Positions 7,133 through 63,662 of a stretch of 64,000 bases of DNA are shown one piece after another. This DNA is from Arthrobacter sp. SLBN-122 (GTDB lineage: Bacteria; Actinomycetota; Actinomycetes; Actinomycetales; Micrococcaceae): assembly GCF_006715165.1 (NCBI RefSeq), contig NZ_VFMS01000001.1:2914001-2978000 (forward strand). Reading direction: 5' to 3'. Numbering within the stretch: the first letter of the stretch is position 1; every line of letters starts with the position of its first letter. The notes beneath the pieces were generated by a model. That model ran no database searches. It was not told the origin of the DNA and saw only the letters and a program-made list of their open reading frames with translations. Both the position numbers and the translations under genes were made by a program.

Positions 7133-7275
7133 GCGAACCTTAAAACAGGGGTATGGAACACTCCGCCAGCCTTCAGGAAGCTCCCAACGTCCGGTGATTT
7201 AATCAGCATCTGTCAGCGAGGTTCATTGCCGCGCTGACGGTGTTTTGATTGCCGAGGCGGGACAGGAGCCCTTGT

Positions 7276-10734: not shown

Positions 10735-12010
10735 CGGGTGTGACCCTGACCCGGGCGATCCGCAACCGGTCCATGCTGAGGACGGTCAGGACGTATCCGG
10801 GGATCTGCACCCGGTCACCTGCCTTCGGCAGCCGGCCCAGGCGGTCCAACATGAACCCCGCCACCGTTTCGTAGTGGCCCTCAGGGAGCGCGATACCGGC
10901 GGCGGCCTTGAACTCCTGCAGGATCAGGCCGCCGTCCACATCGATGGTTCCGTTGGCCACATTGACCCGGTCCTCGTGCTCGGCACCGGTGTCGTATTCG
11001 TCGTAGATCTCGCCCACCAGTTCCTCCACCAGGTCCTCGAGGGTGACGACGCCATCGGTGCCGCCGTATTCATCCACCACCAGGGCGATGTGCTGGTTGG
11101 TCTTGCGCATCCGGGAAAGCGACGGGAGCACGCGGTTGGTCCCGGGCAGCGGCAGGATCTCCCGCGCGATGTCCCTTACAGGTGCCTGGTCCTGTGCTTC
11201 GTCCCGGGGCATCAGGTCGCGGATGTGCACGAAGCCCAGGACGTCGTCAGGGCTCCGCCCGATGACCGGGAAGCGCGAATACGGTCCGTCCCGGACCATC
11301 CTGCGGGCCTCGGCAATGGTCAGCGCGCCGTCGATGAAGGTCACCTCCGTGCGCGGCCGCATCACCTCCTGCAGCGTCCGGTCCCCGGCGCCGAACACAT
11401 CGGCCAGGATGGTGCGGCTGTTCTCTTCGAGGAGTTCGTTCTCCGCCACCAGGTCCCAAAGTTCCTCGGAACTGATGCCTTCCCGTTTGATGCGCGGGTC
11501 GCCGCCAAAGAGCCTGACCACCGCGTCTGTCGACACGGAGAGGAGCCAAATGACCGGCCGCATGGCACCCGAGAGGGCAATCAGCGGCGGGGCCAGGATC
11601 CTGGTGAAGGCAACAGGCCTTTGCAGCGCAAGTCTCTTGGGGGCGAGCTCGCCCAGAACCAGGGAAAGATAAGCAACCAGCAAGGTCATGCCGACGACGG
11701 ACACGGGCCCAGCCGCCGCGCCCAACCCGATGGCTTCGAGGAGGGGCACGACGGCCGGCGCGATCGCCGAGGCGCCATAGGCTGCCGAGAAAAAACCGGA
11801 CAGGGTCACGCCAATCTGCACGGTGGAGAGGAAGCGGTTGGGGTTGCGGGCAAGGGCGGCCGTCCGGGCGCCGGTGTCCCCGGATCTCTCGATGCGGCGC
11901 ACCTGGCTCTCGCGCAGCGATACCAGCGCCATCTCCGCCGCCGCGAACACCCCGCCCAGCAGCACGAAACCGAGAACCAAAGCGATATTAACCAGGGCGC
12001 CGCTGTCCAT
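10715..12010 (-). CDS. CNNM/CBS-domain membrane protein (HlyC/CorC family)
   Basis: 431 aa. An N-terminal CNNM transmembrane domain (about residues 1-190, with FAAAEMALVSLRESQVRR and the SLVLGELAPKRLAL motif) is followed by two CBS domains (about 205-330, with VMRPRTEV, HIALVVDEYGGTDGVVTLED and LVEELVGEIYDEYD). A CorC_HlyC transporter-associated domain closes the protein. This is the classic order for the family, linked to magnesium/cobalt or sodium-dependent magnesium transport. The name hemolysin is historical. The 3' end abuts the GH13 remnant, and the last few residues (VRVTPVAGPPG) may have been altered by that junction. Confidence 0.92.
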   Translation of the reverse strand: MDSGALVNIALVLGFVLLGGVFAAAEMALVSLRESQVRRIERSGDTGARTAALARNPNRFLSTVQIGVTLSGFFSAAYGASAIAPAVVPLLEAIGLGAAAGPVSVVGMTLLVAYLSLVLGELAPKRLALQRPVAFTRILAPPLIALSGAMRPVIWLLSVSTDAVVRLFGGDPRIKREGISSEELWDLVAENELLEENSRTILADVFGAGDRTLQEVMRPRTEVTFIDGALTIAEARRMVRDGPYSRFPVIGRSPDDVLGFVHIRDLMPRDEAQDQAPVRDIAREILPLPGTNRVLPSLSRMRKTNQHIALVVDEYGGTDGVVTLEDLVEELVGEIYDEYDTGAEHEDRVNVANGTIDVDGGLILQEFKAAAGIALPEGHYETVAGFMLDRLGRLPKAGDRVQIPGYVLTVLSMDRLRIARVRVTPVAGPPG

Positions 12011-12060
12011 GGGACGACCTTACCCAGCCGCGGAACCGCTTGCGCGTTCTGGGCCCGGCG

Positions 12061-12819
12061 TCAGGAGGCTACGGAGCGGGGCCGGAGCCGGAGCGCCTGC
12101 ATGCCGCCGTCGACAGCCAGGTCCACGCCCGTAGTTGACCCGGCGAGCGGGCTGGCTAAGTAGGTGATGGCTGCAGCGACCTCCTCCGGGCATACCAGCC
12201 GGCCGTGCGGCTGGCGGGCCTCGAGCGCGGCACGCTCAGCTTGGGGGTCTGCCGCCGTGGACAGCAGCCGGCCGATCCACGGAGTGTCAGCGGTGCCGGG
12301 GTTTACGCAGTTGACCCTGATCCCTTCCTGGAGGTGGTCGGCAGCCATGGCCAGGGTGAGTGACAGCACGGCGCCCTTGGTGGCGCTATAAAGGGCCCGC
12401 TGCGGGATCCCTGCGGTGGCCGCCACGGAGCAGGTGTTGACGATGGCAGCATGCGCCGACTGCCGCAGGTATGGCAGGGCGGCCCGTGAGACGCGGACCA
12501 TTCCCAGCACATTGATATCGAACACCCGGTGCCACTCGTCGTCGTCGTTGGATTCAATGGTGCCCTGCGCACCCACGCCGGCGTTGTTGGCCAGGATGTC
12601 GATCCCGCCCAGTTGCCCCGCAGCCTCTTCCACAGCCTGCCGGACCGAGGCGTCGTCGGAGACGTCGCAGTGGAGTGCCGTGAGCCCTTCCGGCGCCTGT
12701 TCGGGGCGGAGGTCCAGAACGGCGACGGCGGCGCCGCGCTCCTGCAGCAGCTGGGCCGTTGCGGCCCCTATTCCGGAGGCTCCTCCGGTGACGATTGCCT
12801 TAAGTCCCGCAAACTCCAT
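12061..12819 (-). CDS. SDR oxidoreductase, probable 2-keto-3-deoxy-L-fuconate dehydrogenase
   Basis: 252 aa classical short-chain dehydrogenase with the cofactor motif TGGASGIG (about 10-17), NNAG, and the catalytic YSATK. AAAGGAC provides the ribosome binding site. It is the last gene of the minus-strand fucose operon. In the non-phosphorylating fucose pathway an SDR oxidises 2-keto-3-deoxy-L-fuconate at C4 to the 2,4-diketo acid, which the neighbouring FAH-type enzyme then cleaves. That assignment rests on context and family, not on a diagnostic residue. L-fucose dehydrogenase activity is the alternative, but an aldo/keto reductase in the same operon is a better candidate for that step. Confidence 0.82.
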   Translation of the reverse strand: MEFAGLKAIVTGGASGIGAATAQLLQERGAAVAVLDLRPEQAPEGLTALHCDVSDDASVRQAVEEAAGQLGGIDILANNAGVGAQGTIESNDDDEWHRVFDINVLGMVRVSRAALPYLRQSAHAAIVNTCSVAATAGIPQRALYSATKGAVLSLTLAMAADHLQEGIRVNCVNPGTADTPWIGRLLSTAADPQAERAALEARQPHGRLVCPEEVAAAITYLASPLAGSTTGVDLAVDGGMQALRLRPRSVAS

Positions 12820-13731: not shown

Positions 13732-14703
13732 TTAGATGATGAGGCCGCGGTGGCGCAGGTCATCCCAGAGCTGGTCCGGGACGGCCTTCGATGCCAAATC
13801 GAGGTTTTGCTTGACCTGTTCCGGCGTTCGCATGCCCAGGACCACGCTTGTCACGGCGGGGTGTAGGTACGGGTACTGGAGGGCGGCCGCGGGGAGTGTG
13901 GTTCCGTGTGATTCGCAGATGTCCGCGAGCAGGTTGGCGCGGTCCAGAAGCTCCTGCGGGGCTGGTGCATAGTTGTAGGTGGCGTCGCGGGCCGGACGGT
14001 CCTTGGAGAGCAGGCCGGAGTTGAAGACCCCGACGTTTACCACTCCCACTTCCCGCTCAAGGCACGCCGGCAGCAGTTCCTGCGCTGCTCCCTGTTCCAG
14101 CAGCGTGTACCGGCCGGCCAGCATGATCACATCGATGTCTGTTTCCGTGACGAAACGGGCGAGCATTTCGGATTGGTTCATGCCCGCGCCCCACGCGCCG
14201 ATGACGCCCTCATCCCTGAGGGCGGACAGAGTGGGTGCGGCGCCGTTGACGGCTTCGGTCCAGTAGTCGTCCGGGTCATGAATGTAGACGACGTCGATCC
14301 GGTCAGTCCCGAGCCGCTGGAGGCTTTCCTCGATGGAGCGCAGCACTCCGTCCCGGGAGTAGTCGCGGACCCGGGCCAGGTTGTCGGGAACGTCGAACCC
14401 CTCGCTGTCCTTTCCATTAGGGGACGGATTGGGCCGCAGCAGGCGCCCCACCTTGGTGCTGAGCACGTAGCTGCTGCGGTCCTGGCCAGCGAGGGCTTTT
14501 CCCAGACGGTGTTCGGAAAGTCCCAGCCCGTAGTGCGGTGCTGTGTCGAAGTACCGGACACCACCCTCCCAGGCTGTTTCGACGGCTTCGACCGCCTCCT
14601 GTTCCGGCACTTGCCGGTACAGGTTGCCGATGGGGGCGCCCCCGAACCCGAGGACGGGCAGACGCACCGCAGTGCCGGGGATGGTGCGGGTTTCTGTTTG
14701 CAT
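13732..14703 (-). CDS. Aldo/keto reductase, probable L-fucose dehydrogenase
   Basis: 323 aa from the ATG at 14703, preceded by GGAGAAGG. The upstream open frame to 14901 overlaps the lactonase gene and is rejected. The TIM-barrel AKR signatures are FGGAPIGNLYR at the N-terminus, RYFDTAPHYGLGLSEHRLG with the catalytic D and Y, STKVGRLL with the catalytic lysine, and VYIHDPD. This subgroup contains the D-threo-aldose 1-dehydrogenases, which oxidise L-fucose to the lactone with NAD(P). The flanking mutarotase and lactonase genes fit that role exactly. The start codon sits 3 bp from the stop of the lactonase gene, suggesting translational coupling. Confidence 0.88.
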   Translation of the reverse strand: MQTETRTIPGTAVRLPVLGFGGAPIGNLYRQVPEQEAVEAVETAWEGGVRYFDTAPHYGLGLSEHRLGKALAGQDRSSYVLSTKVGRLLRPNPSPNGKDSEGFDVPDNLARVRDYSRDGVLRSIEESLQRLGTDRIDVVYIHDPDDYWTEAVNGAAPTLSALRDEGVIGAWGAGMNQSEMLARFVTETDIDVIMLAGRYTLLEQGAAQELLPACLEREVGVVNVGVFNSGLLSKDRPARDATYNYAPAPQELLDRANLLADICESHGTTLPAAALQYPYLHPAVTSVVLGMRTPEQVKQNLDLASKAVPDQLWDDLRHRGLII

Positions 14704-14705
14704 GG

Positions 14706-15605
14706 TTAGTCCTTCTCCTCTTCCTGGTTCGCGGGACCTCGGACAGCCTCCAGCCGGTAAACGCGAACTGCGGTTCCATGTGCCACGGACTCGCGCTCGC
14801 TTGCTGACGCGCCGGTCATCGCCTGCTCCACCGTTGTGATCCAGTCCTGGTACCCGGCCGGTTCCGTGAGCGAGACGGGCCAGTCGCTGCCGATCATGCA
14901 CCGCCCGGCGCCAAAGAGGTTCAGGGTTTCCCGGATGAAAGGCAGGGCCTGCGGCGCAAATGGACGCGTCGGGTCGGCTTCCGCGCCCGCCCCCGAGATC
15001 TTTACGACGACGTTGGGCTGCCTGGCCAGTGCACGCATCGCGGTGCTCCAGTCGCTGAGTTCACCGGCAGCAATGGGTGGCTTGCCCATGTGGTCCAGGA
15101 CGATGTCCAGCTCCGGTACCAGGGCAGCAAACTCTGCAAGCTCCAAAAGTTGGGACGAGCGGATGCAGGCGTCAAAGGTAAATCCAACCTTTCCTGCCTG
15201 GCGCGCTCCGGCAATTGTTTCCGGTGCCAGCATGAAACCTGCCTCCCTGTCCTGGAACAGCTCGCGCACCCCGCGGACCAGGGGCCGCTGACGCAGCTCG
15301 TCAAGGTCATGGGACACACTGTCCCCGCGGCTGATGGGGGCGAAAGCCACAACCGCCGCCAACTCGGGCCAGTCGGCCGCCAGGCCGGCCACCCAGTCAA
15401 CTTCCCCCAGAGCCTGGTCATCACGGCAATCGGCCTGCACAAAGACGGACCGTGTCCCGGGCGGGTGCGGAAGTTGGTGTGGAAGGAATGGCCGGTTCAT
15501 CCCGGGAACGCCGTTCAACCAGTCGTAGCGGAGCACGGCCGGGTCCCAGACATGGACGTGTGAGTCTACTAACTGAAGCAACTGCCGGCCCTCATGCCGC
15601 TCCAT
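14706..15605 (-). CDS. Amidohydrolase family protein, probable L-fuconolactonase
   Basis: 299 aa from the ATG at 15605; a TTG at 15620 is an alternative. The metal-dependent hydrolase barrel shows the N-terminal VDSHVHVWDP (H-x-H), then IVLDHMGKPP and MIGSDWPV with the catalytic aspartate. This layout is the amidohydrolase 2 / TIM-barrel lactonase type. It would hydrolyse L-fucono-1,5-lactone to L-fuconate. Its 5' end overlaps the mutarotase gene by 14 bp. The lactonase assignment depends on the neighbours; the fold itself is clear. Confidence 0.85.
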   Translation of the reverse strand: MERHEGRQLLQLVDSHVHVWDPAVLRYDWLNGVPGMNRPFLPHQLPHPPGTRSVFVQADCRDDQALGEVDWVAGLAADWPELAAVVAFAPISRGDSVSHDLDELRQRPLVRGVRELFQDREAGFMLAPETIAGARQAGKVGFTFDACIRSSQLLELAEFAALVPELDIVLDHMGKPPIAAGELSDWSTAMRALARQPNVVVKISGAGAEADPTRPFAPQALPFIRETLNLFGAGRCMIGSDWPVSLTEPAGYQDWITTVEQAMTGASASERESVAHGTAVRVYRLEAVRGPANQEEEKD

Positions 15606-16020
15606 CGGGCCGGACCCCAATGGTCAGCAGCAGGTTCGCGTAGTGCCGGGTGTCCCCACTGGCGATGACGACGGCGACGTTCGGCGACCGCGCGGCGTCG
15701 TAAAAGTCGAAGCGCTGGTGGGAAGTGATGGGAACCCGTGCACCCAGTGCGCTTTCGTAGCCTTTGACTGCCTCTGTCCAGTTTCCGTCCGGGGGTGCCA
15801 TGACCGCGGCGGCTTCGAGCGGAACGGCGTCGATCAGTACTTCCAGGATCTGGTCGATGGTCAACAGGCCAGGCCTCAGGTTCAGGGATATCCGCCGGGC
15901 AGCTGCAGGGGCGCCGGTATTGTGCGGGTAGTTGGCATCCGCCAGGAGGATCTGCGAACCGTGCCCGGATTCGGCGAGGGCCGCCAGCAGGCCCGGGTGG
16001 GTGAGCGTGTAGTTGATCAT
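15592..16020 (-). CDS. RbsD/FucU family protein, probable L-fucose mutarotase
   Basis: 142 aa from the ATG at 16020, with a purine-rich GGGGAAAAGG upstream. The RbsD/FucU signature is present at the N-terminus (HPGLLAALAESGHG, then ILLADANYPHNTG), and the ending TRHYANLLLTIGV is typical. FucU interconverts alpha- and beta-L-fucose so that the dehydrogenase can use all incoming sugar. It is the first gene of the five-gene catabolic operon that runs to 12061. The upstream open frame extending to 16392 crosses the divergent regulator and is not coding. Confidence 0.9.
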   Translation of the reverse strand: MINYTLTHPGLLAALAESGHGSQILLADANYPHNTGAPAAARRISLNLRPGLLTIDQILEVLIDAVPLEAAAVMAPPDGNWTEAVKGYESALGARVPITSHQRFDFYDAARSPNVAVVIASGDTRHYANLLLTIGVRPDGAA

Positions 16021-16060
16021 GCCTTTTCCCCTACCCTTTTCCTGGACTGCCCTGCTGTTC

Positions 16061-16130
16061 ATCTGATGTATTTTGAAGTATTCGATGAGATTATAGGCAG
16101 AAGCAGGTTCTTCCAAGTGATACATCTGAT
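16061..16130. promoter_or_regulatory. Inverted-repeat pair in the divergent fucose promoter region
   Basis: Between the mutarotase and regulator genes lie ATCTGATGTAT (16061-16071) and ATACATCTGAT (16120-16130). They are inverted copies matching at 10 of 11 positions and separated by 48 bp. The AT-rich stretch between them probably contains both promoters. The adjacent FadR-type GntR regulator is the natural candidate to bind here. Function is inferred only from position and symmetry. Confidence 0.45.
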
Positions 16131-16174
16131 GAAAGCCAAATATGCTCGTCGGAGTACTAGGAAAGGCGGCTGCC

Positions 16175-16951
16175 GTGAGTAACGGCAATTCCATTGGGTC
16201 GATGTCCCAGACAGACGTCGTGATTTCAGGCGTGAAACAGATGCTGTCCTCCCGGCGGCTGCGGCCGGGCGACCGGTTGCCCATTGAGAAGGACCTGGCA
16301 GCGGAATTGCAGGTTTCCCGGGGCTCCCTTCGGGAAGGCGTGCGCGCACTGTCCACCATGGGCATCCTGGAAACCAGGCAGGGTGCCGGCACCTTCGTAA
16401 CCCGACTGGAGCCGTCCGCCCTGCTGTCCGCTATGGAATTCTGGGTAGGCCTGCAGGATGGAGAGCGGGCGAATCAGGTGCATACAGTCCGCCGGGCCCT
16501 TGAAACGGAAGCGGCAGCGGCGGCGGCGGTGTGTATCGACAGCTCCCAGCTTGATCAGGCCGAAAATATCTTGGGGCGGGCGAACGCTGCCATCCAGGCC
16601 TCACCCATCGACCATGCCGGCGCCATGCAGTGTGACATCGAATTCCACCGGCTCATCGCGGAGGCTTCAAGGAACCACGTGCTGTCAGCGCTGATCGAGA
16701 CTGTATCCACGAACACGATTCGCGGCCGGATGTGGCGGTCCATCCATGACAATGAAGGCCTGGCGGACACGCATCGGGAGCATCTGGGAATCCTGGAAGC
16801 GCTGCGGCAGCATGACGCCGACAGGGCCAGGACCCGCATGGCAAACCACCTCTATGCGGTGGAGGACTACATCTCGGCCCTCCCTGATCACACATCATCC
16901 TTCAGTGGTCCTTCCACCGTGCGGAACGCTTCGAACCAAGAATTGGAGTGA
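16175..16951 (+). CDS. GntR/FadR-type transcriptional regulator of the fucose genes
   Basis: 258 aa if translated from the GTG at 16175, which has AGGAAAGG about eight bases upstream. An ATG at 16142 would add 11 residues. The N-terminal winged helix-turn-helix (LRPGDRLPIEKDLAAELQVS, RGSLREGVRALSTMGILE, RQGAGTFV) is followed by an all-helical FCD effector domain. That domain has the metal-site pattern DIEFHRLIAEASRN and HREHLGILEALRQHD. FCD regulators commonly sense carboxylates or sugar acids. Divergence from the mutarotase operon and the 4-bp gap to the fucosidase gene suggest it controls both. Repressor action is the usual mode. Confidence 0.88.
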   Translation: MSNGNSIGSMSQTDVVISGVKQMLSSRRLRPGDRLPIEKDLAAELQVSRGSLREGVRALSTMGILETRQGAGTFVTRLEPSALLSAMEFWVGLQDGERANQVHTVRRALETEAAAAAAVCIDSSQLDQAENILGRANAAIQASPIDHAGAMQCDIEFHRLIAEASRNHVLSALIETVSTNTIRGRMWRSIHDNEGLADTHREHLGILEALRQHDADRARTRMANHLYAVEDYISALPDHTSSFSGPSTVRNASNQELE

Positions 16952-24764: not shown

Positions 24765-26039
24765 TCAGCGGCCTGCCGGTTCCGTTGCCTTCAAGGTCTC
24801 GTTAAGGCGCGCGTCCAGCAGGCCTGCTGCGACTGCGGGGGCCAGGCCGGGCGCCAGCGGAAGGCGCGGGACCACAAGGCAGTGCCAGAGGTGGTAGATG
24901 TCCGCCTTGCCCGACCACACGGTGGACGTGACATTGCCATGCTCGTCGAGTTCCTGCTTCCAGGAACCATGCTCGTAGTCGATGAACCAATCGCGAGCGT
25001 GGTCCCAGATCCGCTCGTACCAGTCCGCATACTTCTTCTCCCCGGTGGCGATATACAGCGCTGCCGCACCTCCGATGGCCTCCGCGGGAACCCAGCGGAT
25101 GCGGGTGGTGACCACCGGCTTGCCTTCCCAGTCCACCGTGTACACAAAACCGGGATTGCCGTCCGGCTGCCAGGCGTCGCGGATGGCGGCGTCGAACAGA
25201 CCCCGGGCGTCGTCGAGCAGCCAGGCGGGGACGTCCAGGCCGCGGGCTTCGAGTCCGGCCCGGAGGTGGAGGAGCAGACGGGCCCATTCCACCCAGTGGC
25301 CGGGGGTTCCGCCGTATGCACGAAACTGGCTTGCCCGGTCGTCAGTGTTGTATTCCGGCATCGGGTTCCACTCGGGGTCGAAGTGCTCGAATACCCGGTA
25401 GTTGTTGTTGCGCGCAAATTTGTGGATGAGCACCTCGGCGATGTGCAGGGCCCGTTCCAGCCATCGGTTCTCCCCGGTTACGTCGGCGACGATCAGGTAG
25501 GCCTCGACCGAGTGCATGCTCGCGTTGCCGCCACGGTAGGCCTCGGTTTCCGTGAACTCCCGGTTCCACGAGTCGAAGCACATGTTCGCCTCGTGGTCCC
25601 AGAACTTCGTGTCGGCTATCCGGAGCGCCTCGTCCAGTAATTGGCGGGCCCCCGGCCGCCCTGCGGCTACGGCACTGGCAGCGGCGAGGAGTACGAAGGA
25701 GTGCTGGTAGCCGGACTTCGTATCGTTCACGGGACTGTTCCCGTCCACCTCGGCGTACCAGCCCCCGAACTCATCATCGTGGAGGGGGCCGTTGAGCGCT
25801 GCGATGCCGTGGTCCACAAGCAGTGCAGCGCCAGGCCGTCCCATCAGTGCGGCCACAGCGAAACTGTGCGTCATCCGGGCGGTGATCCAAAGATGGGTGG
25901 GCTTATCCGCGAACACTTTGCCGTAGTTATCCAGCCAGCCGAATCCCGTGGGGACCTTGGAAGCCTCGGCGAAGTTAATCAGCCGGTCGGTTTCGGCCTC
26001 GAGCCATCGTGCGTGGGCGGCATTGTCGAGCCACGTCAT
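24765..26039 (-). CDS. AGE-family isomerase, probable sulfoquinovose isomerase (YihS-like)
   Basis: 424 aa from the ATG at 26039, preceded by AAAGAGGAAAC. The (alpha/alpha)6 barrel keeps the catalytic set expected for YihS: R55 (TARMTH), H176 (NASMHSVEA), H248 and E251 ([13 protein letters not shown]), and H383 (IYHLWH). These coincide in number with the histidines I recall as essential in enterobacterial YihS. The enzyme would convert sulfoquinovose to 6-deoxy-6-sulfofructose in the cytoplasm. N-acylglucosamine epimerase or mannose isomerase are the alternatives on sequence alone. The kinase, aldolase and exporter genes in the same operon favour the sulfosugar. It is the last gene of the minus-strand operon. 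Confidence 0.82.
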
Positions 26040-26090
26040 GTTGTTTCCTCTTTCTTTGCAGGTGCGGATGTTGGGCGGGTGCAGCAATTT

Positions 26091-26834
26091 TCAGCCAACG
26101 GCGTCGAGCACGCCGCGGATGATGGTGGCGGCCGCTCCCAGGTACGCCAGGACGATCAGCAGGATCTGTGCGGCGCGGGCGGGAACGTGTTTGGAGGCAA
26201 GATCGCCGAGCACAAGGCCAGCCAGGCAGGCGACGGCCACGGCCACCCACATGGCCAACGGCAGCACGGGGAACGAGGCAGGTGCCGTGATCGCCTTGGA
26301 GATCAGGGAGAACGTGCCGATGGTGAAGAAGTACGGCTGCATGGTGGCGGCGAATGATTTGTGCTGCCAGCGGGTGGCGATGGAGTACATGCTGACGGCC
26401 GGGCCGCCCACGCCCGCCGCCGTGTTCATGAACCCGCTCAGGCTGCCGGCGGTCAGCAGGTAGCGGCGGTGAGCGGGCAGGGTGGCGGACTTGAGGACCA
26501 GCAGGACGGTCAGGCCGACGGCGAGGATCACGCCGATGGAGATCTCAAGGACCGCAGGTGGGATGAAACGGATCAGGATGGCCGCCGGAACGATGCCCAA
26601 GAGTGCCGAGGCCGTCAGCGCTCCATAGCGCTTCCAGTCGATGTCCCGCACCACCCGGAAGATGATGGCCCCCGCGGTGACGGCGCCGCACACGTTCACC
26701 AGCACCACCCCCTCCACCGGGCCCAGCAGAAGGACCAGGAAGGGCGCGGCCACCAAGGCGAACCCCATGCCCGTGACGCGCTGCATCCCGGCACCCATGA
26801 CGACGGCGCCCAGCACCAGCCCGGTGGTCAGCAC
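26091..26834 (-). CDS. TauE/SafE (TSUP) family exporter, probable sulfolactate exporter
   Basis: 247 aa with a GTG start at 26834, one base after the aldehyde dehydrogenase stop codon. About eight hydrophobic helices form two related halves: GMGFALVAAPFLVLLLGPVE near the N-terminus and LTAGSLSGFMNTAAGVGGPA in the second half. TSUP proteins move sulfur-containing anions such as sulfite, sulfoacetate and sulfolactate. Here export of the C3-sulfonate end product is the most economical role. The tight packing with the dehydrogenase gene supports a shared pathway. Direction of transport cannot be read from sequence. Confidence 0.83.
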   Translation of the reverse strand: MLTTGLVLGAVVMGAGMQRVTGMGFALVAAPFLVLLLGPVEGVVLVNVCGAVTAGAIIFRVVRDIDWKRYGALTASALLGIVPAAILIRFIPPAVLEISIGVILAVGLTVLLVLKSATLPAHRRYLLTAGSLSGFMNTAAGVGGPAVSMYSIATRWQHKSFAATMQPYFFTIGTFSLISKAITAPASFPVLPLAMWVAVAVACLAGLVLGDLASKHVPARAAQILLIVLAYLGAAATIIRGVLDAVG

Positions 26835-28340
26835 CTAGGGCCTCCAGGCCACGTACTGGACCTCCTCGAACTCCTCGAGGCCCAAACTTGATCCTTCCCG
26901 GCCCAGGCCGGACTGCTTGGCCCCGCCCATGGGGGCGAAGGCGACAGAGGGCAGGGGATCGTTGACCCCCACAATGCCGGCTTCGAGGCGTTCGGGGATA
27001 TCCCAGCCGCGCTTGGGGCTGCTGCTCCATACGTAGGCGGCCAGGCCCATCTCGGTGGCGTTGGCCTTGCGAACGGCGTCCTCTTCCGAGGAAAAAGTGA
27101 CGACGCCGGCCGCCGGGCCGAACACTTCCTCGGTCACCAGTGGTGCGTCGTCGGGGACGTCCGTGAGCAGCGTGGGTGCCATGAAGGCGCCCTGCCCGGG
27201 GACATCGGTCCGCTGCGTGACGCGCCGGGCGCCTCGGCTGAGGGCGTCATCCACCAGCGCCTGCACCGCGGACACCCTTTCGGCGTCGATCACGGGACCG
27301 AGGTCCGGAACCGGTGCGCCGTCGTCGGGAACTCCATGCCCAACGGTCATCGCATCAAAGCGGGCGCCCAGCTTCCGGGCGAACTCCGCGGCGATGCTGT
27401 CCTGGACCAGGAACCGGTTGGCGGCCACGCAGGACTGGCCGGTGTTGCGGAGCCGGCCCAGCACGGCACCTTCGACCGCGGCGTCCAGGTCGGCGTCCTC
27501 GAACACGATGAAAGGTGCGTTGCCACCCAGTTCCAGCAGCGGCCGGACCACGCGCTGGGAAGCCGAAACCATGATCTGCCGCCCCACCCCGGTGGAACCG
27601 GTGAAACTGACCGCCCTGACCGCCGGGTGGGACATCAGGGCCCCGGTGATTTCGCGGGAGGGCCCATGGACCAGGTTGACCACCCCGGCGGGGAAGCCGG
27701 CGTCATGCAGGACCTCGAAGAGTCCAGTGGCAGCCAACGGGGCCTTTTCGGAGACCCTGCCCACCACCGTGCAGCCAGCCGCGAGCATCGCAGCCAGCTT
27801 CCGGGCCTGGATGGACACCGGGAAGTTCCAGGGCGTGAGGCTCAGGGCCACGCCGATGGGCCTGCGGCTGCTGAGATGGCGGCGGCCCTGGAGCTCGGGC
27901 GGGCTGACGGTGCCGGTGGCACGGCGCGCTTCCTCGGCAAACCAGCGGAAGTACTCCACCGAGAAGTCCACCTCGCCCTGTGCTTCGGGCAGCCGCTTGC
28001 CCGCCTCGAGCGCCAGGGTGTGTGCGAGTTCGTCGCGGCGTTCGGCCAGGAGGTCGGCGGCGTTGCGCAGCAGGTCTGCCCGGTGCCGGACCGTGGTGCG
28101 GGACCAGGAACCAAAAGCCTCGGCGGCGGCGTCCGCGGCTCTGGTGGCGTCTTCGGCCCCGCCCCAGGCCACCTCGCCTACGGTGCTGCCGTTGCCCGGG
28201 TCAATCACGTCCTTGGTGGTTCTGGCGGCGTGCCATGTGCCGTTCACGAGGTGCCGGGCTGATTTGAGGTTCACTGGGTGCCTTTCGTTGGCTGGAAATT
28301 GTACGCCGGGCGCAAAGCCAGGCGCCGTCGTCGTACTCAT
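26835..28340 (-). CDS. NAD(P)-dependent aldehyde dehydrogenase, probable sulfolactaldehyde dehydrogenase
   Basis: 501 aa, GabD-like. Catalytic residues are present: N172 (TPWNFP), E270 (LLELGGNAPF) and C304 (NTGQSC). The glycine motif is FTGSTGVG. In sulfoglycolysis this family oxidises 3-sulfolactaldehyde to 3-sulfolactate. One oddity is that the usual cofactor motif V-x-K-P-(S/A)-E reads VGRVSE at 193-198, replacing the nucleotide-binding lysine by arginine and the proline by valine. The gene overlaps the preceding permease by 4 bp (ATGA). Succinate semialdehyde dehydrogenase is the alternative annotation, disfavoured by the operon. Confidence 0.85.
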   Translation of the reverse strand: MSTTTAPGFAPGVQFPANERHPVNLKSARHLVNGTWHAARTTKDVIDPGNGSTVGEVAWGGAEDATRAADAAAEAFGSWSRTTVRHRADLLRNAADLLAERRDELAHTLALEAGKRLPEAQGEVDFSVEYFRWFAEEARRATGTVSPPELQGRRHLSSRRPIGVALSLTPWNFPVSIQARKLAAMLAAGCTVVGRVSEKAPLAATGLFEVLHDAGFPAGVVNLVHGPSREITGALMSHPAVRAVSFTGSTGVGRQIMVSASQRVVRPLLELGGNAPFIVFEDADLDAAVEGAVLGRLRNTGQSCVAANRFLVQDSIAAEFARKLGARFDAMTVGHGVPDDGAPVPDLGPVIDAERVSAVQALVDDALSRGARRVTQRTDVPGQGAFMAPTLLTDVPDDAPLVTEEVFGPAAGVVTFSSEEDAVRKANATEMGLAAYVWSSSPKRGWDIPERLEAGIVGVNDPLPSVAFAPMGGAKQSGLGREGSSLGLEEFEEVQYVAWRP

Positions 28341-29152
28341 CCCTTACTCGCGCCTGCGGTGATGCCGGCCACGAAGTAGCGCTGGAGGAAGACGTAGGCC
28401 ACCACCACGGGCAGGGACGCCAGGATGACGCCGGCGAACAGCAGCGGGTAGTTGGTCTGGAACTCGCCCTGGAAGCTCAACAGCGCCAGCGGCAGGGTGC
28501 GGTTGCCGGGGGTTTGGATGAACAGCAGCGGGTACAGCAGTTCGTTCCAGTGGATGACGAACAGGAAGATCGCGGCGGCGGCGATGGAGGGGGCGGACAG
28601 CGGCAAGGCGATGGAGGCGTAGGTCTTCCACGGCCCGCTGCCGTCGATGGAGGATGCTTCATAGAGTTCCTTGGGCAGGGTCCGCATGAACCCGCCCAGG
28701 ATGAACACGGCGATGGGAAGCGTGGACACCAGGTTGGCCAGGATCAGGCCGCCCAGGTTGTCCAGCAGGCCCAGCCGGCCGAAGAGCACGTACAGCGGCA
28801 CCATGTTGGCCTGCGCCGGGATGGCCATGCCCAGCACCAAAAAGCCGAAGATGGCCCAGGACATGAACCCCTTCAATCGGGACACTCCATAGCCGGCCAG
28901 GCTGGCCAGGAACAGGGTCAGTGGCACGGAGATGCCGGTGACGATGACGCTGTTGACGAAGGACGAGCCCAGGTTCTGGCCGCCTACCACTTCGGCAAAG
29001 TTATCGGCGGAGGGGGAGTGGGGCAGGCTGAAAGGCCCGGCGAACAGTTCCTGCGTGGTCTTGAAACTGCCGAAGGCCACTACGGTAAGCGGAACGATGA
29101 TGATGACCGCATAGATGGCCAGGATGGCGCGGCGGCTTAGCGAGGTGAGCAT
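28337..29152 (-). CDS. ABC sugar transporter permease, MalG type
   Basis: 271 aa, six predicted membrane helices. The EAA loop that contacts the ATPase is visible as ELYEASSIDGSGPWKTYASI, followed by ALPLSAPSI. It pairs with the MalF-type permease 4 bp upstream and the lipoprotein gene before it. No ATPase gene is present in the cluster. The assembled importer would bring in sulfoquinovose or its glycosides, inferred from context. Confidence 0.92.
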   Translation of the reverse strand: MLTSLSRRAILAIYAVIIIVPLTVVAFGSFKTTQELFAGPFSLPHSPSADNFAEVVGGQNLGSSFVNSVIVTGISVPLTLFLASLAGYGVSRLKGFMSWAIFGFLVLGMAIPAQANMVPLYVLFGRLGLLDNLGGLILANLVSTLPIAVFILGGFMRTLPKELYEASSIDGSGPWKTYASIALPLSAPSIAAAAIFLFVIHWNELLYPLLFIQTPGNRTLPLALLSFQGEFQTNYPLLFAGVILASLPVVVAYVFLQRYFVAGITAGASKG

Positions 29153-29156
29153 GCTG

Positions 29157-30113
29157 CTATTCCCCCTTCGGGGTCAGCCGGAGCAGGCGGCGCTGAAGCC
29201 ACGTGACCAGGGCGATCATCGCCATGAAGATGATCGACTGGGCGGCGGCGTAGCCGAACTCCGAGTTGGCAAAGGTGCTGTAAATGCGGGTGGACAAGAT
29301 GTCCAGCGAGCTCTTGGGCGGGTTGCCCGCGATGCCCAGGATCAGGTCGAACGCCTTGAACGACTGCACGGTGGTATAGGCCACCACAATGGAGGTGGCG
29401 GGGGCCACGAACGGCCAAGTAATGGACTTGAACTGCTGCCACTTGTTGGCCCCGTCCATTTCCGCTGCTTCATAGAGTTCCCGCGGGATGGCCTGCAGCC
29501 CGGCGATGTAGACCACCATCATCTGGCCCGAGTGGAACCACACCTGGGTGACAGCCACCCAATAGAGGGCCTGCGCGTCGTTGCCGAGGTAGGCGCCGCC
29601 GTCCACCCCAACGGTTCGAAGGACAGAATTGGCCAGCCCGAAGTTGGGGTCGTAGATGAACTTCCAGATGAAGGCCACCGATACGGAGGACAGGATGGTG
29701 GGGAAGAAGAACAGGGCACGGAGCAGGATGCTGCCCCGCGAATTCTTCGTCAGGAGCAGGGCGAGGATCAGCGAGAAGAACGTCTGCGCGATCACCACCA
29801 GCAGCACGAACTTCAGGTTGTTGGTCAGGGCGTTGGTGAACAGCGAGTCGTTGGTGAACGCGCGGATGAAGTTGTCCAGGCCCACGTAGTTGAATGCCGC
29901 GGAGAAGCCGTTCCAGTCGGTGATGGCGTATTGGAAGGCCTGCAGCGTGGGCATCACCAGGAAGAACGCAATGACGGCGACGGCGGGGAGCGGGAACAGG
30001 TACAGTGCCGGATTCACCCGGGTGGGGGAGCGGCGGCGCACCTTGGGAGCGTTCGCGGCGGCCTGACTGTCCGGTGCCTTGTGCTTGGCGGCGGTTCCGG
30101 GATGGATGCTCAT
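29157..30113 (-). CDS. ABC sugar transporter permease, MalF type
   Basis: 318 aa. A cytoplasmic N-terminal segment with many basic residues (KVRRRSPTRVNPAL) precedes six helices. The EAA loop is ELYEAAEMDGANKWQQFKSI. Its start codon overlaps the stop of the binding-protein gene by 4 bp (ATGA), indicating coupled translation. It is the partner of the MalG-type permease downstream. Confidence 0.92.
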   Translation of the reverse strand: MSIHPGTAAKHKAPDSQAAANAPKVRRRSPTRVNPALYLFPLPAVAVIAFFLVMPTLQAFQYAITDWNGFSAAFNYVGLDNFIRAFTNDSLFTNALTNNLKFVLLVVIAQTFFSLILALLLTKNSRGSILLRALFFFPTILSSVSVAFIWKFIYDPNFGLANSVLRTVGVDGGAYLGNDAQALYWVAVTQVWFHSGQMMVVYIAGLQAIPRELYEAAEMDGANKWQQFKSITWPFVAPATSIVVAYTTVQSFKAFDLILGIAGNPPKSSLDILSTRIYSTFANSEFGYAAAQSIIFMAMIALVTWLQRRLLRLTPKGE

Positions 30114-31399
30114 AGCCGTTCGTCAACAATCTTCTGGGCGGCAGCGGCTGCCTGCTCAGGGCTGGTGCCCGAGATGACGGCGGTGGCGCTGGCTTCCACC
30201 GCGTTGCGGACATCGAGGTTGTTGAACTGGAAGCGGGCTGCGAGCGCCGTCTTCTTCTGCAGCCAGGGGCTCAGCCGCTTCAGGTCCGGGTTGGTGTACT
30301 CCACCTTGTCCACGGACACGTGCTGGGCTGTCTGGTTGGCGTAGTAGCCGGCGTTCTCCGGCTCGGAGAGGAAATCGATCCAGGCTGCCGCGGCGGCCTG
30401 GTTCTTGCTGGCCGAGTTGACGCCCAGGATGAAGGTGGCGTTGTAGGCGCCCTCATACTTGCCGTTGCCGTCCGAGGTGGTGTTGGGGAACACCAGGTCG
30501 ATGGGGAACTTGGCGCCGAGTCCGCGGACCGCGGCGAGGTGGTACGAGCCGGTGGCCAGCATGGCGGCCTTGCCCTGGGAGAACAGGTTCTGTGCCGGCT
30601 CCACCGCGGTGCCCGTGGCGTTGGGCTGCACGAAGGGCGTCAGGTCCTTGTACTGGTTGAGCATCTTGATGAACCAGTCGTCGGTGCACTTGAGCTTGCC
30701 CTGTTCAATCTGCGCGCACATGTCGTCAACGGGGGCGTTGTTGGCAATCATGCAGTTGAACAGCTGGCCGCCGTTGCCCACATCGCCGCCCGGCCAGGAG
30801 ATGGGGATGACGCCGGCGGAGGCCAGCTTTTCGCACATCCCCAGGAAGGCGTCCCAGTTCTTCGGGGCGGTCTCCGCCCCGGCCTTGTCGAAAATGTCGA
30901 GGTTGGCCATGGGCATGGGGAAGACCACCTGGTAGGGCAGGCCTAGCTGGCTGTCGCCGTTCTGGCCGGCCGACAGCAGCCCCTTCTGGTAGTTCTTCAC
31001 TGCCTGGCTGTCTTTCAGCTCAGTGTAGATCCCGGCTTCGGTGAAGTTCTTGAACTGGGCGCCGCGGAAGGTGGCGAAGGCGTCGCCGATGGAGCCGCCG
31101 CGCAGCTTCTGCAGGGCCTGGGCGTTGTAGTCGTTGGAGGTGGAGATGTCCTGGGCGATCTCCATGCCGTCGTGCTTTGCCACGAAGCGCTTGATGAGCT
31201 CGTCAAACACGGCTTTGTCCTCGCCGCGCCAGTGCGCGAAGGAGACCTTGCCGGTGATCGCGCCCGTTGATGGGGCGGCCGGTCCGCTGGCGCCTCCGGG
31301 TGCGGTGGAACCGCCTGGCCCGGCGCACGCCGCCGCGGTGGCGCCGAAGCCCAGGGCGCCGAGAATGGCCATGGCCTGCCTGCGTGAAATCTGACTCAC
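30110..31399 (-). CDS. Extracellular sugar-binding lipoprotein of the ABC importer
   Basis: 429 aa. The N-terminus SRRQAMAILGALGFGATAAA ends in a lipobox-like cysteine (AACAGP); the leading SRR suggests possible Tat export. The mature part is a family 1 solute-binding protein (KVSFAHWRGEDKAVFDELIK, later WIDFLSEPENAGYYANQ). It delivers the substrate to the two permeases encoded downstream. A specific sulfonate-binding site cannot be identified by eye. The 89 bp between this gene and the aldolase gene upstream may allow an internal promoter. Confidence 0.9.
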   Translation of the reverse strand: MSQISRRQAMAILGALGFGATAAACAGPGGSTAPGGASGPAAPSTGAITGKVSFAHWRGEDKAVFDELIKRFVAKHDGMEIAQDISTSNDYNAQALQKLRGGSIGDAFATFRGAQFKNFTEAGIYTELKDSQAVKNYQKGLLSAGQNGDSQLGLPYQVVFPMPMANLDIFDKAGAETAPKNWDAFLGMCEKLASAGVIPISWPGGDVGNGGQLFNCMIANNAPVDDMCAQIEQGKLKCTDDWFIKMLNQYKDLTPFVQPNATGTAVEPAQNLFSQGKAAMLATGSYHLAAVRGLGAKFPIDLVFPNTTSDGNGKYEGAYNATFILGVNSASKNQAAAAAWIDFLSEPENAGYYANQTAQHVSVDKVEYTNPDLKRLSPWLQKKTALAARFQFNNLDVRNAVEASATAVISGTSPEQAAAAAQKIVDERL

Positions 31400-31488
31400 A
31401 ATAATCTCCTCGTTGAGTGTTTGCTGTGCCTTGTTTGCTTGCTACAGAGAGGGGTTGCCCCGGCTACGTTTCGGCGCTCCAACCGCGC

Positions 31489-32373
31489 CTAGGCGTGGGT
31501 CCGTTGGCTGGAAACGACGTCGTCCACCACGGCGCAGAGGCGCTGCAGCCGCCGGACGGCGTCCGTGGAAAGGGATTCGACGACGTCGGGGGCTCCAATG
31601 CAGGAGGCCCACACGGCGCGTCCGGAGAGGAAGCCGCTGGCGCCTTCCAGGCAGGCCCAGCGGACGGCGTCGGGGAAGACGTCTTCGGGGACACCCGAGG
31701 ACAGGACCACCCAAGGCCCGTCGATGGCCTTGGTCAGTTCGGCGCACGCGGCCCGGACCTCGGCTTCGGAGGCCTGGCCCTTGAAGGGGACCTCTGCCTT
31801 GTAGAGGTCGGCGCCCAGGCTGCCGAGTTCCTTGGCAGCGGCGAGGATGCCGGCGTTCCAGTCGAAGTCGCCGCCAGCAAGGGGCTTGCGGGAGACGGGT
31901 TCGATGATGCTGATCAGTCCGGCGGACCGGCAGCTCTCCACGAATTCGCGGACCATGGACACCCGGCCCTCGGCGGGCTCGTCGGGGCGGTAGAGCACCA
32001 GCAGCTTGAGGGCCTTGGCGCCGAGGGCCTTGTACTTGTGCGGCTCCACCAGGGGGTCGATGGTCACTTCGCCCACCAGCTCGTCGTGCGCGGACTCGAA
32101 GTGGTCCGCCGAGGCGATGAGTCCGCAGCCGGGGTCCACGACGCCGGCCTCGATGGCCTGGTCAAGGGCAAACTGCCGGTCGATGAGGATTCCCGAGGCA
32201 TAGGGGCTGAGGATCCGGGCGGCCTCCAGCTTGAAGTCCTGCAGGTCCTGGTCGGTAACGGGCTTGTCCGTGTGCTCGGCGAACATGTTGCGCATGGCTT
32301 CGCGCTGGTCCACCGCGAGCATCGCGAAGGCGCCTGAGGGGCGCTGCAGGGGGGAAAGGTCGGTGTGGCTCAT
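31489..32373 (-). CDS. Class I aldolase, LacD/YihT family, probable 6-deoxy-6-sulfofructose-1-phosphate aldolase
   Basis: 294 aa, the size of YihT. The barrel begins with FAMLAVDQREAMRNMF. The Schiff-base lysine is K192 in GADLYKAEVPFKG. The phosphate-binding LSSGV motif follows. R252 in SGRAVW occupies the position of the arginine that binds the sulfonate in YihT proteins. The enzyme would split sulfofructose 1-phosphate into dihydroxyacetone phosphate and sulfolactaldehyde. Tagatose-bisphosphate aldolase is the alternative. It lies between the kinase gene (32 bp upstream) and the importer genes. Confidence 0.85.
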   Translation of the reverse strand: MSHTDLSPLQRPSGAFAMLAVDQREAMRNMFAEHTDKPVTDQDLQDFKLEAARILSPYASGILIDRQFALDQAIEAGVVDPGCGLIASADHFESAHDELVGEVTIDPLVEPHKYKALGAKALKLLVLYRPDEPAEGRVSMVREFVESCRSAGLISIIEPVSRKPLAGGDFDWNAGILAAAKELGSLGADLYKAEVPFKGQASEAEVRAACAELTKAIDGPWVVLSSGVPEDVFPDAVRWACLEGASGFLSGRAVWASCIGAPDVVESLSTDAVRRLQRLCAVVDDVVSSQRTHA

Positions 32374-32405
32374 GGGCTGCTTCTTTCAGCTGGCTGGTGA
32401 TATGG

Positions 32406-33320
32406 CTAGGCAGGTTGGTTGGTGGCAAGTTCGGAGGTGACGGCCTGGTGCGGGATGGCTGAGCGGCCGTCCAGCCCGGCGCAGGATGCGGCGGCGGTGC
32501 GGCCGGCGAACGCGGCGGCGTCCACCAGCGGGAGCCCGGCCGCGACGGCGGCGAGGAGCGCCCCGTGGTACACGTCGCCGGCGCCCAGGGTGGAAACGAT
32601 CTCTGCCGGCGTGGCCGGCACGTGGACCGGTTCACCGCCGCGTTCCATAACCCAGGCACCTTCGGAGCCGGCGGTGGCGACGACGGCGGCGGCGCCGTCG
32701 TCGAGCGCTTTGCCCAGGAGGGCCTCGGGGGAGAGGTCCGCCCCGTACTCTGCCTGGAGCCTTTCGATGGTGGGTACATACAATGCGACGCCCCGGGGGC
32801 TGAAGGCGGGAATCGGGTTGCCCGCGTCAACACTGATGTTCAGGGTCGCAGGGTTGAAGCCGGGCACCGAGGCGACGGCATTCCAGCCCAGGTGGTCCGT
32901 GTGGACCCAGGCCGCAGACTGCAGCAGCTCTGTAAAGCGGCTGGCGGCGGGAAAGGTGACGGGCGGCACCGGCCGGGTGACGATGGCCCGGCTTTCGGTG
33001 GCCCGGCTGACGATGATCACGCTGGCGCCGGTCTTGACGCCGGGATCGCGGATGACGGCGGAGGTGTCCACGCCCTCGGCCTCAAGGCCGTGGATGATGC
33101 GGTCACCCTCCTCGTCGGTGCCCAAGACGCCTGCAAAGGCGGTCTTGGCTCCGGCCCGGGCGGCTGCGACGGCTGCAGTAGCAGCGGGGCCGCCGCCGGC
33201 CGTCGCAAAGTCGGTGGCAACCGTGCGGCTGTCCGCGGCGGGGTAATCCTGCACCAGGGCAATGGAGTCAAGAGTGGCGCATCCTACAAAGAGCAGGGTT
33301 CCAGTTGACGGTTGGGGCAC
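32406..33320 (-). CDS. PfkB-family sugar kinase, probable 6-deoxy-6-sulfofructose kinase (YihV-like)
   Basis: 304 aa from the GTG at 33320, chosen because GAGGTGG lies just upstream. A start further upstream would overlap the promoter. PfkB signatures are GGGPAATAAVAAARAGAKTA near residue 42 and the active-site GAGD at 246-249 (D249 is the catalytic base). It would phosphorylate sulfofructose at C1 using ATP. It is the first gene of the eight-gene minus-strand operon. Ribokinase or fructokinase activity cannot be excluded from sequence, but the YihS- and YihT-like partners favour the sulfosugar. Confidence 0.85.
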   Translation of the reverse strand: MPQPSTGTLLFVGCATLDSIALVQDYPAADSRTVATDFATAGGGPAATAAVAAARAGAKTAFAGVLGTDEEGDRIIHGLEAEGVDTSAVIRDPGVKTGASVIIVSRATESRAIVTRPVPPVTFPAASRFTELLQSAAWVHTDHLGWNAVASVPGFNPATLNISVDAGNPIPAFSPRGVALYVPTIERLQAEYGADLSPEALLGKALDDGAAAVVATAGSEGAWVMERGGEPVHVPATPAEIVSTLGAGDVYHGALLAAVAAGLPLVDAAAFAGRTAAASCAGLDGRSAIPHQAVTSELATNQPA

Positions 33321-33337
33321 GTTCCACCTCGTTGTAG

Positions 33338-34603
<1,266 letters not shown>

Positions 34604-34612
34604 GAAGATACG

Positions 34613-34628
34613 TGTTGGAATTGCAACA
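34613..34628. promoter_or_regulatory. Second TGTTG-N6-CAACA operator, in front of the DeoR gene
   Basis: TGTTG-GAATTG-CAACA is a perfect 5+5 palindrome with the same six-base spacing as the site at 33372-33387. It lies between the Gfo/Idh/MocA stop codon and the regulator start. That position fits autoregulation or a roadblock within the transcript. Confidence 0.6.
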
Positions 34629-34673
34629 TCCCGCCAGGCTCCTGCCCGGCGCATTGGGGAGGGAGAACGGCCG

Positions 34674-35456
34674 ATGAGTACCGCACATGAAGAGGCGCCG
34701 CTGACACCCCGCCAGCGCACCATCCTGGACGAGCTGGGCCGGAGGGGGTTCATTTCGACGAACGACCTGGCGGAGACATTTGCCGTTTCCGACATGACCG
34801 TGCGGAGGGACACCCGCGTCTTGTCCAGGCGTGGACTGGCGCGGGTGGTCCACGGTGGCGTTAGTGCCGTGGACGGGCATGGGCAGAACGCAAACTTCGC
34901 GGCGCGCGTCCGTGAGGACGCCGACGCGAAGCTGCGGGTGGCCCGCGCCTGTCTATCGCTGGTCGGCGAGCGGGATGCCATCATCCTCGATGCCGGCACC
35001 ACCACCTACCAGATCGCGCAGGAACTCCCCACGTCCTTCACCGGCACCATCATCACGCACTCCGCGCCCGCCATTCAGCGCTGCCTGCAGCTGACGGCGG
35101 CACGCACCATCTGCCTGGGTGGGGAGTTGCTGCTTGACAGTCAGGCATTCAACGGCCCCATGACCATCAGCGCCGCCGCCGGGCTGCGTGCCAAGACAGC
35201 CTTCATCGGAGTCAGCGGCATCCATGACGAGGCCTTCTACATTGAGCGCGATGTCGAGCGCGCCACTAAGATCGCCCTTATGAATTCAGCGGAACAGGTG
35301 GTGGTGGTGGCAACCCACCAGAAGATGCTGCGGTACGCACTGGCGCGGCTGGAGGGTTTCGACGCCGTGGACATCCTGGTGACGGATGCGCCGCCGCCGC
35401 AGGAAATCGAGAATGCCTTGAGGGCCGCCAACGTCAAGCTGATGGTGGCCGCATGA
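34674..35456 (+). CDS. DeoR-family transcriptional regulator of the sulfoquinovose island
   Basis: 260 aa from the ATG at 34674, with GGGAGGGAG upstream. Residues 8-65 form the DeoR helix-turn-helix (LTPRQRTILDELGRRGFIST, NDLAETFAVSDMTVRRDTRV). The rest is the DeoRC sugar-phosphate sensor domain (DAIILDAGTTTYQIAQELP, GVSGIHDEAFYI). DeoR repressors typically respond to phosphorylated sugars, so sulfofructose 1-phosphate or a derived phosphate ester is a reasonable inducer. Two matching palindromes flank the upstream gene. The stop codon overlaps the next gene's start (ATGA). Confidence 0.9.
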   Translation: MSTAHEEAPLTPRQRTILDELGRRGFISTNDLAETFAVSDMTVRRDTRVLSRRGLARVVHGGVSAVDGHGQNANFAARVREDADAKLRVARACLSLVGERDAIILDAGTTTYQIAQELPTSFTGTIITHSAPAIQRCLQLTAARTICLGGELLLDSQAFNGPMTISAAAGLRAKTAFIGVSGIHDEAFYIERDVERATKIALMNSAEQVVVVATHQKMLRYALARLEGFDAVDILVTDAPPPQEIENALRAANVKLMVAA

Positions 35457-36370
35457 CCACCCGCCTGCGCGTCTGCCTGCCCGCCCAGAATCTGCTGGAC
35501 GCACTGGCGCCGATGGACGACGTCGACTTTGTCCTCTGGGACCTGACCGGGCCGGCGCCGGAAGGCCGGCTGGACCTGCTGGTCCCCGGCTACATGGGCA
35601 AACCGACGGCGCTCGCCGCGCTGGAGGGCGTCGACGTCGGGCTGGTGCAGAGCCAGTCCATCGGGTACGACGGCGTTGCCTCGGTGTTGCCGCCAGGCGT
35701 CACCTTCGCCAACGCGGCGGGAGTCCATGAGACGTCGACGGCGGAACTCGCCGTGGGCATGATGATCGCCGCCCAGCGTGGCATTCCGGACTTTGTCCGT
35801 AACCAGGAGGCTGGTGCCTGGGACAACAGCCAGCGGCCCAGCCTCGCCGACCGGCGCGTGCTGCTGGTGGGTTACGGCGGAGTGGGCAAGGCCATCGAGG
35901 CCCGGCTCCTGCCGTTCGAAACCGAGGTCACCCGGATGGCCAGCCGCGCCCGGGACGATGAGCGCGGCACCATCCTCGGGATTGACTCGCTCTACGAGCA
36001 GCTGCCGCTCCACGAGATTGTAGTGGTCAGCGTCCCCCTGAGCGAAGACACCCAGCAGTTGGTGGACGCGAAGTTCCTGGCCGCCATGCCGGACGGCGCC
36101 CTGCTGGTCAATATGGCCCGCGGTCCGGTAGCGGACACCGGGGCGGTGCTGGCCGAGACGTCAAGCGGGCGCCTCCGGGCGGCGCTGGACGTCACCGATC
36201 CGGAACCGCTGCCCGCTGACCATCCCTTGTGGATAACCCCCGGCGTGCTTATCACCCCGCACGTGGGCGGTGCCAGCTCGGCCATGTTCCCCCGGATGGT
36301 CCGGCTGCTCCGGAAGCAGATCGGTCTGCTGCTGGAGGGCAAGGACCCGGTGAACGTGGTCCTTCCTTAA
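35453..36370 (+). CDS. D-isomer-specific 2-hydroxyacid dehydrogenase family protein
   Basis: 305 aa, translationally coupled to the DeoR gene by an ATGA overlap. The NAD-binding domain has VLLVGYGGVGKAIEARL. The catalytic residues follow the family pattern: arginine in NMARGPVADT, glutamate in VTDPEPLPADHPLW, and histidine in ITPHVGG. Family members interconvert 2-hydroxy and 2-keto acids or reduce glyoxylate and hydroxypyruvate. A role on sulfolactate is possible because of its position, but nothing in the sequence proves it. It may simply be carried along downstream of the regulator. Confidence 0.85.
   Translation: MTTRLRVCLPAQNLLDALAPMDDVDFVLWDLTGPAPEGRLDLLVPGYMGKPTALAALEGVDVGLVQSQSIGYDGVASVLPPGVTFANAAGVHETSTAELAVGMMIAAQRGIPDFVRNQEAGAWDNSQRPSLADRRVLLVGYGGVGKAIEARLLPFETEVTRMASRARDDERGTILGIDSLYEQLPLHEIVVVSVPLSEDTQQLVDAKFLAAMPDGALLVNMARGPVADTGAVLAETSSGRLRAALDVTDPEPLPADHPLWITPGVLITPHVGGASSAMFPRMVRLLRKQIGLLLEGKDPVNVVLP

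Positions 36371-58486: not shown

Positions 58487-63662
<5,176 letters not shown>

Follow-up and report, generated by a model that had tools for sequence, protein, structure and literature searches.

In this study, we analyzed a 64,000-nucleotide stretch of the genome of Arthrobacter sp. SLBN-122 (contig NZ_VFMS01000001.1, positions 2,914,001 to 2,978,000; hereafter the window, whose own numbering is used throughout), and found that in this soil bacterium the gene island at 24765-36370 is the sulfo-Embden-Meyerhof-Parnas (sulfo-EMP) cluster already known from Arthrobacter and Pseudarthrobacter. A cluster of this published type, which converts sulfoquinovose, a sugar of plant sulfolipids, to excreted sulfolactate, almost certainly accounts for the island as a whole. 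It was reported in 2022 by Kaur et al. (PMC8873060) and extended in 2023 by Kaur et al. (PMC10755693); these and all further papers, given by PMC identifier, are cited for parts of their texts. A first-pass annotation, made by a model from the letters of the sequence, had proposed a sulfo-EMP route in which sulfolactaldehyde is oxidized to sulfolactate, and the same cluster type does this in Arthrobacter AK01 and AK04 (PMC8873060, PMC10755693). The novelty that it implied has to be given up, and a novel pathway is ruled out, as the cluster is already in both papers. A reading of raw sequence can, as here, recover a real sulfonate pathway.

All genes named in that annotation are intact, and their coordinates hold apart from the choice of start codons: the isomerase likely starts at ATG 26039, replacing TTG 26087, the kinase probably at GTG 33320 (the longest frame opens at 33365), and sqgA and deoR likely at ATG 33461 and ATG 34674, respectively. 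On the minus strand, the kinase gene is followed by those for the aldolase, the solute-binding protein, two permeases, the aldehyde dehydrogenase, TauE and the isomerase, and the plus strand carries the Gfo/Idh/MocA gene, deoR and the 2-hydroxyacid dehydrogenase gene. The features are as follows:

24765-26039, minus strand: sulfoquinovose isomerase, YihS-like, AGE superfamily
26091-26834, minus strand: TauE/SafE permease, probable sulfolactate exporter (PF01925, 69 bits)
26835-28340, minus strand: aldehyde dehydrogenase, assigned as sulfolactaldehyde dehydrogenase of the GabD/SlaB type (PF00171)
28337-29152, minus strand: ABC importer permease (PF00528)
29157-30113, minus strand: ABC importer permease (PF00528)
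30110-31399, minus strand: ABC importer solute-binding protein, ligand predicted (PF01547)
31489-32373, minus strand: sulfofructose-1-phosphate aldolase, YihT-like, class I
32406-33320, minus strand: sulfofructose kinase, YihV-like, PfkB family
33372-33387, no strand: palindrome TGTTGGAAAAACAACA, probable DeoR operator 1, in the divergent kinase/sqgA promoter region; the site is kept in relatives
33461-34603, plus strand: SqgA, NAD+-dependent sulfoquinovosidase, GH188, Gfo/Idh/MocA fold
34613-34628, no strand: palindrome TGTTGGAATTGCAACA, probable DeoR operator 2, between sqgA and deoR, called from site counts and conservation
34674-35456, plus strand: DeoR-family regulator, CsqR-like, probable repressor of the island (PF00455, PF08220)
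35453-36370, plus strand: D-2-hydroxyacid dehydrogenase, resident neighbor, probably outside the pathway (PF02826)

Scanning of genome contigs with the aldolase yielded 24 related loci (individual loci are given below by L numbers), every one of them titled Arthrobacter or Pseudarthrobacter. The locus of AK04 (L012) has the same gene content and order as the window, with 80-92% protein identity (isomerase 91%, TauE 90%, aldehyde dehydrogenase 92%, permeases 91%, solute-binding protein 89%, aldolase 92%, kinase 83%, SqgA 92%, DeoR 89%, and 2-hydroxyacid dehydrogenase 80%). That of Arthrobacter sp. Soil764 (L002), a strain listed in the legend of Fig. 4 of PMC8873060, shows about 91% DNA identity to the window over 18 kb. 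AK01 and AK04 were isolated on sulfoquinovose and their product was identified as sulfolactate by 13C-NMR (PMC8873060), and the AK01 enzymes are induced on sulfoquinovose according to proteomics (PMC10755693).

The Gfo/Idh/MocA protein had initially been left unassigned, with no sulfoquinovosidase (SQase) implied; judged by its structural matches and active-site residues, it is SqgA, an NAD+-dependent GH188 sulfoquinovosidase. Its PDB ranking is headed by the NAD+-dependent sulfoquinovosidases 8qc2/8qc3 (765 and 752 bits), followed by 8zn9 ("Oxidoreductase, putative", 372 bits) and then by inositol dehydrogenase (80 bits). The 2022 paper had noted the lack of an SQase and a gene, "IolG", for which it had no explanation (PMC8873060); SqgA was subsequently identified as a sulfoquinovosidase, its structure solved and family GH188 founded, with NAD+-dependent activity demonstrated for FlSqgA and ArSqgA (PMC10755693). 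The residues listed there are Lys107, Tyr136, Glu189, His193 and His321, the sulfonate triad Arg166, Leu170 and Lys172, and also Glu163, and eight of the nine occur in the window protein at the published numbers (K107, Y136, R166, L170, K172, E189, H193, and H321). At the ninth, the window has V163 with E164 adjacent; because the surrounding stretch SIVEHRFP is identical in the 8qc3 chain, the mismatch is probably a numbering slip. Leu at position 170 places the protein outside the Tyr variants of PMC11465081. In a sample of 121 genomes of the genus, SqgA and the aldolase were found in the identical 36 (E<=1e-40), the other 85 being island-less, and the whole SLBN-122 genome has no match to GH31 (PF01055) at E<=0.001 (6 of 14 control genomes match). 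The best NCBIfam model of SqgA is inositol 2-dehydrogenase, by which its annotation is easily mistaken; this is corrected here.

For the three central enzymes, the Yih and CsqR proteins of E. coli K-12 served as references for identities. The isomerase shares 60% identity with YihS across 409 residues and matches 2rgk (yihS) and 7ag4 (sulfoquinovose isomerase) best in PDB, while the aldolase shares 49% identity with YihT and has 1to3, 7ag7 and 7ag1, each a YihT or sulfofructosephosphate aldolase, as its top matches. The kinase, which is placed via best matches and synteny only, has the sulfofructose kinase 7ag6 as its top PDB match (E 5e-29). The residues that had been put forward as signatures are indeed present (H176/H248/E251/H383 in the isomerase, K192 and R252 in the aldolase, and GAGD in the kinase), their diagnostic value being the first-pass annotation's own statement. 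The lack of YihQ (GH31), YihR and YihU homologues that it described was reproduced as well, since tblastn with E. coli YihO, YihP, YihQ, YihR and YihU gave zero matches in the window at E<=1e-3.

The aldehyde dehydrogenase has a WNF motif, the nucleophile motif RNTGQSC, and two Arg residues at positions equivalent to 171 and 289 of RlGabD, which have been proposed to bind the sulfonate (PMC10599462). It appears to stand, as a sulfolactaldehyde dehydrogenase, in the place that YihU would otherwise take. The TauE/SafE permease is present in 24 of 24 related loci, and an exporter role has been proposed for TauE (PMC8873060). The solute-binding protein has weak PDB matches (best 50 bits); the ligand of the importer is probably sulfoquinovose or its glycerol glycoside. 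The cluster contains no gene for an importer ATPase, and two MalK-type ATPase genes are found elsewhere in the genome.

By analogy with AK01 and AK04, the window genome would be expected to behave as these strains do, the exporter, importer ligand and operator likewise being predictions. Sulfoquinovose or sulfoquinovosyl glycerol would enter through the ABC importer, which would share an ATPase encoded elsewhere in the genome. SqgA would release sulfoquinovose via a transient oxidation at C3 that depends on NAD+, and the YihS-like isomerase would convert it to sulfofructose. This product would be phosphorylated by the YihV-like kinase and cleaved by the YihT-like aldolase, yielding sulfolactaldehyde together with dihydroxyacetone phosphate (DHAP) that supports growth. 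Sulfolactaldehyde would be oxidized by the aldehyde dehydrogenase to sulfolactate for export by TauE, and DeoR probably represses both divergent transcripts through two TGTTG-N6-CAACA sites.

Several results weigh against this interpretation. The top PDB match of the aldehyde dehydrogenase is a succinate-semialdehyde dehydrogenase (3jz4), and because this enzyme has the same two Arg residues, the specificity assigned to the window protein rests on context. Only 32% identity links the kinase to E. coli YihV, none of the 10 proteins scanned reached a curated NCBIfam cut-off, and a promoter/terminator scan gave no promoter-like sites (0.9 expected), with 8 terminator-like sites compared to 7.1 expected. 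In addition, the search for sulfolactate degradation covered only PF04295-type lyases and sulfoacetaldehyde acetyltransferase (Xsc).

The strongest competing explanation is a sulfo-EMP cluster whose 2-hydroxyacid dehydrogenase, which we liken to SlcC, would process sulfolactate further as a sulfolactate/sulfopyruvate dehydrogenase. This gene had been counted in the pathway at first; it overlaps deoR by 4 bases, and of the 24 related loci, 22 cover this side and 16 of these have it after deoR. However, it is retained in some genomes that lack the island. At E<=1e-40 the dehydrogenase has matches in 95 of the 121 genomes, many of them homologues of 41-73% identity; counting only close ones (at least 77% identity over nearly the whole length, an 80% fragment in G029 being excluded), 28 of the 36 genomes with the island have it, as do 27 of the 85 island-less ones, with 77-91% identity in the latter. 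Eight of these 27 island-less sites were examined (L027-L034). In five (L027, L028, L029, L031, and L034), the dehydrogenase gene lies between the left (MFS) and right (SRPBCC) neighbors of the window; L030 keeps the right neighbor and a more distant gene of the left flank, and L032 and L033 have neither neighbor. In four island loci (L014, L017, L019, and L020), the isomerase gene occupies the dehydrogenase's place after deoR. Moreover, AK04 has the dehydrogenase and still excretes sulfolactate. The genome has no match to PF04295, which we take to be the domain of SuyAB-type sulfolactate sulfo-lyases (control genomes match in 5 of 14), and no Xsc above the cut-off (11 matches fall below it, as do those of the 14 control genomes); breakdown of sulfolactate by either enzyme was rejected. 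Because of these two negative results, sulfolactate is likely the excreted end product. We therefore consider further processing improbable. Its retention in island-less genomes, at five of the eight sites between the same flanks, disfavors the dehydrogenase as a pathway enzyme, and despite the overlap with deoR it is probably a resident gene adjoining the island. No report of it in this setting was found in the literature searched, which comprised open-licence PMC texts exclusive of figures and supplements (these may show the gene). As such a neighbor is easily taken for a pathway enzyme, its annotation is corrected here.

A cluster for an ordinary sugar (of the mannose, tagatose, fructose or N-acylglucosamine type) merely resembling the Yih genes would fit the best NCBIfam models of the isomerase (D-mannose isomerase, 531 bits against a cut-off of 600) and the aldolase (tagatose 1,6-diphosphate aldolase subfamily, 145.5 bits against 184). 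Nevertheless, we regard it as highly improbable: the YihS and YihT structures top the PDB matches of these same two proteins, the cluster includes SqgA with the sulfonate-binding R166/L170/K172, and AK04 and AK01 use the same cluster type for growth on sulfoquinovose.

With regard to regulation of this sulfo-EMP island, the palindrome TGTTG-N6-CAACA flanks sqgA on both sides, giving two window sites when 0.06 are expected. If A is fixed at the eighth base, these two are the only places in the 4.47 Mb genome, and a backwards control has one match per strand. A genome scan allowing 3 mismatches gave 11 places and 19 in the backwards control, so that weight can be given only to the stricter scans. 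Exact copies, one or more per locus, are present in 22 of the 24 island loci, and the contigs of the remaining two (L004 and L021) stop short of the operator region; the nine loci L027-L035 have no exact copy. Searching the intergenic region for inverted repeats gave nothing at the settings used; the palindrome emerged from an alignment. This element is probably the DeoR operator, of which no report was found in the same literature (PMC10991401, in part, included). It is noted that in 8 of the 24 loci a phosphomannomutase/phosphoglucomutase gene neighbors the island (L013, L014, L017, L018 at 4562-5950, L019, L020, L022, and L023). Extra exact copies of the operator are located 38-47 bases upstream of it in L013, L018, L014, L019 and L020. 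The best homologue in the window genome (72%) is unlinked to the island, and the literature searched contained no tie of this enzyme to sulfoglycolysis. The predicted operator is a simple sequence signature by which regulated sulfoquinovose islands of Arthrobacter and Pseudarthrobacter could be recognized.

The island-less sites also carry possible traces of deoR. In all eight, a short ORF (10-19 codons) ends with a stop that overlaps the dehydrogenase start, and in L029 and L033 its frame stays open further upstream; no such ORF precedes the dehydrogenase in L035, whose genome carries the island at another place. The short ORF of L028 ends in ANVKLMVAA, the C-terminus of the window DeoR, with nucleotide differences that are all synonymous. 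Likeness to the DeoR tail is partial in L033, L030, L027 and L032 and weak in L029, with no clear match in L031 and L034. Because DeoR proteins of islands without the dehydrogenase neighbor end similarly (NVRLIVAE and DVKLIVAA), the shared tail belongs to DeoR. These comparisons suggest that the short ORFs are deletion scars of deoR and that island-less relatives lost the island from an island-bearing ancestor; the literature searched held no report of such scars. Taking regulation and loss together, we lean toward a model in which DeoR represses a small TGTTG-N6-CAACA regulon, consisting here of the island only and in relatives of an extra phosphomannomutase/phosphoglucomutase copy too, and in which the island is ancestral and was lost by deletion that left the deoR-end leader ORF (10-19 codons) overlapping the dehydrogenase start.

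Three related loci have a FucI-type isomerase gene (L013 at 10906-12303, L021 at 1684-3105, and L024 at 10882-12309) and no YihS-like gene within the stretches examined, and are apparently hybrid sulfo-EMP clusters as judged from their genes; the L024 protein scores 279 bits against the NCBIfam model for sulfoquinovose isomerase SftI, under the cut-off of 700. Neither isomerase type was found within the stretch examined in L023, which carries a gene for an FAD-dependent oxidoreductase (PF01266) near sqgA (6535-7539); our guess is a glycerol-3-phosphate dehydrogenase, fitting glycerol from sulfoquinovosyl glycerol. Five of the 24 loci have a gene for an M24-peptidase-like protein between those for the permease and the aldehyde dehydrogenase (L013 at 15422-16567, L021 at 6255-7337, L022 at 14081-15193, L023 at 14075-15183 in two pieces, and L024 at 15421-16626). 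By eye, two usual Asp residues of what we take to be its metal-binding motif seem replaced; the literature searched had no report of the gene in this setting. Positions 20000-42000 of the window gave zero Rfam matches, and outside the island a complete rRNA operon (16S, 23S, and 5S) at 58487-63943 is the reason for the lower G+C and the GC skew at that end.

Compared with known systems, the window shares with the E. coli yih cluster homologues of the isomerase, kinase and aldolase and a DeoR-family regulator (27% identity to CsqR), but it differs in having no YihQ, YihR, YihU, YihO or YihP homologue, an aldehyde dehydrogenase in place of the sulfolactaldehyde reductase, and an ABC importer plus TauE. 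Reviews assign Arthrobacter to sulfo-EMP, and they locate sulfo-EMP2, whose enzymes are non-orthologous, in Firmicutes (PMC12890257, PMC9594981). Sulfo-EMP2 (Bacillus urumqiensis) or a sulfofucose pathway has a negligible probability here: sulfo-EMP2 shares the intermediates of sulfo-EMP and an SftI/SqvD-like isomerase occurs in L013, L021 and L024, but the isomerase of the window is of the AGE type, its kinase of the PfkB family and its aldolase of class I (DeoC/LacD family), not the non-orthologous SqvD, SqiK and SqiA (PMC9594981, PMC12890257), and the L024 isomerase has no match in the window (tblastn, E<=1e-5); the comparison covered the enzymes of sulfo-EMP2 only. From the cluster of AK01 and AK04, the window differs by strain and by no functional feature that we found; it has, like them, neither a GH31 SQase nor a mutarotase homologue in the window, and it shares their oxidative ending, TauE and ABC importer.

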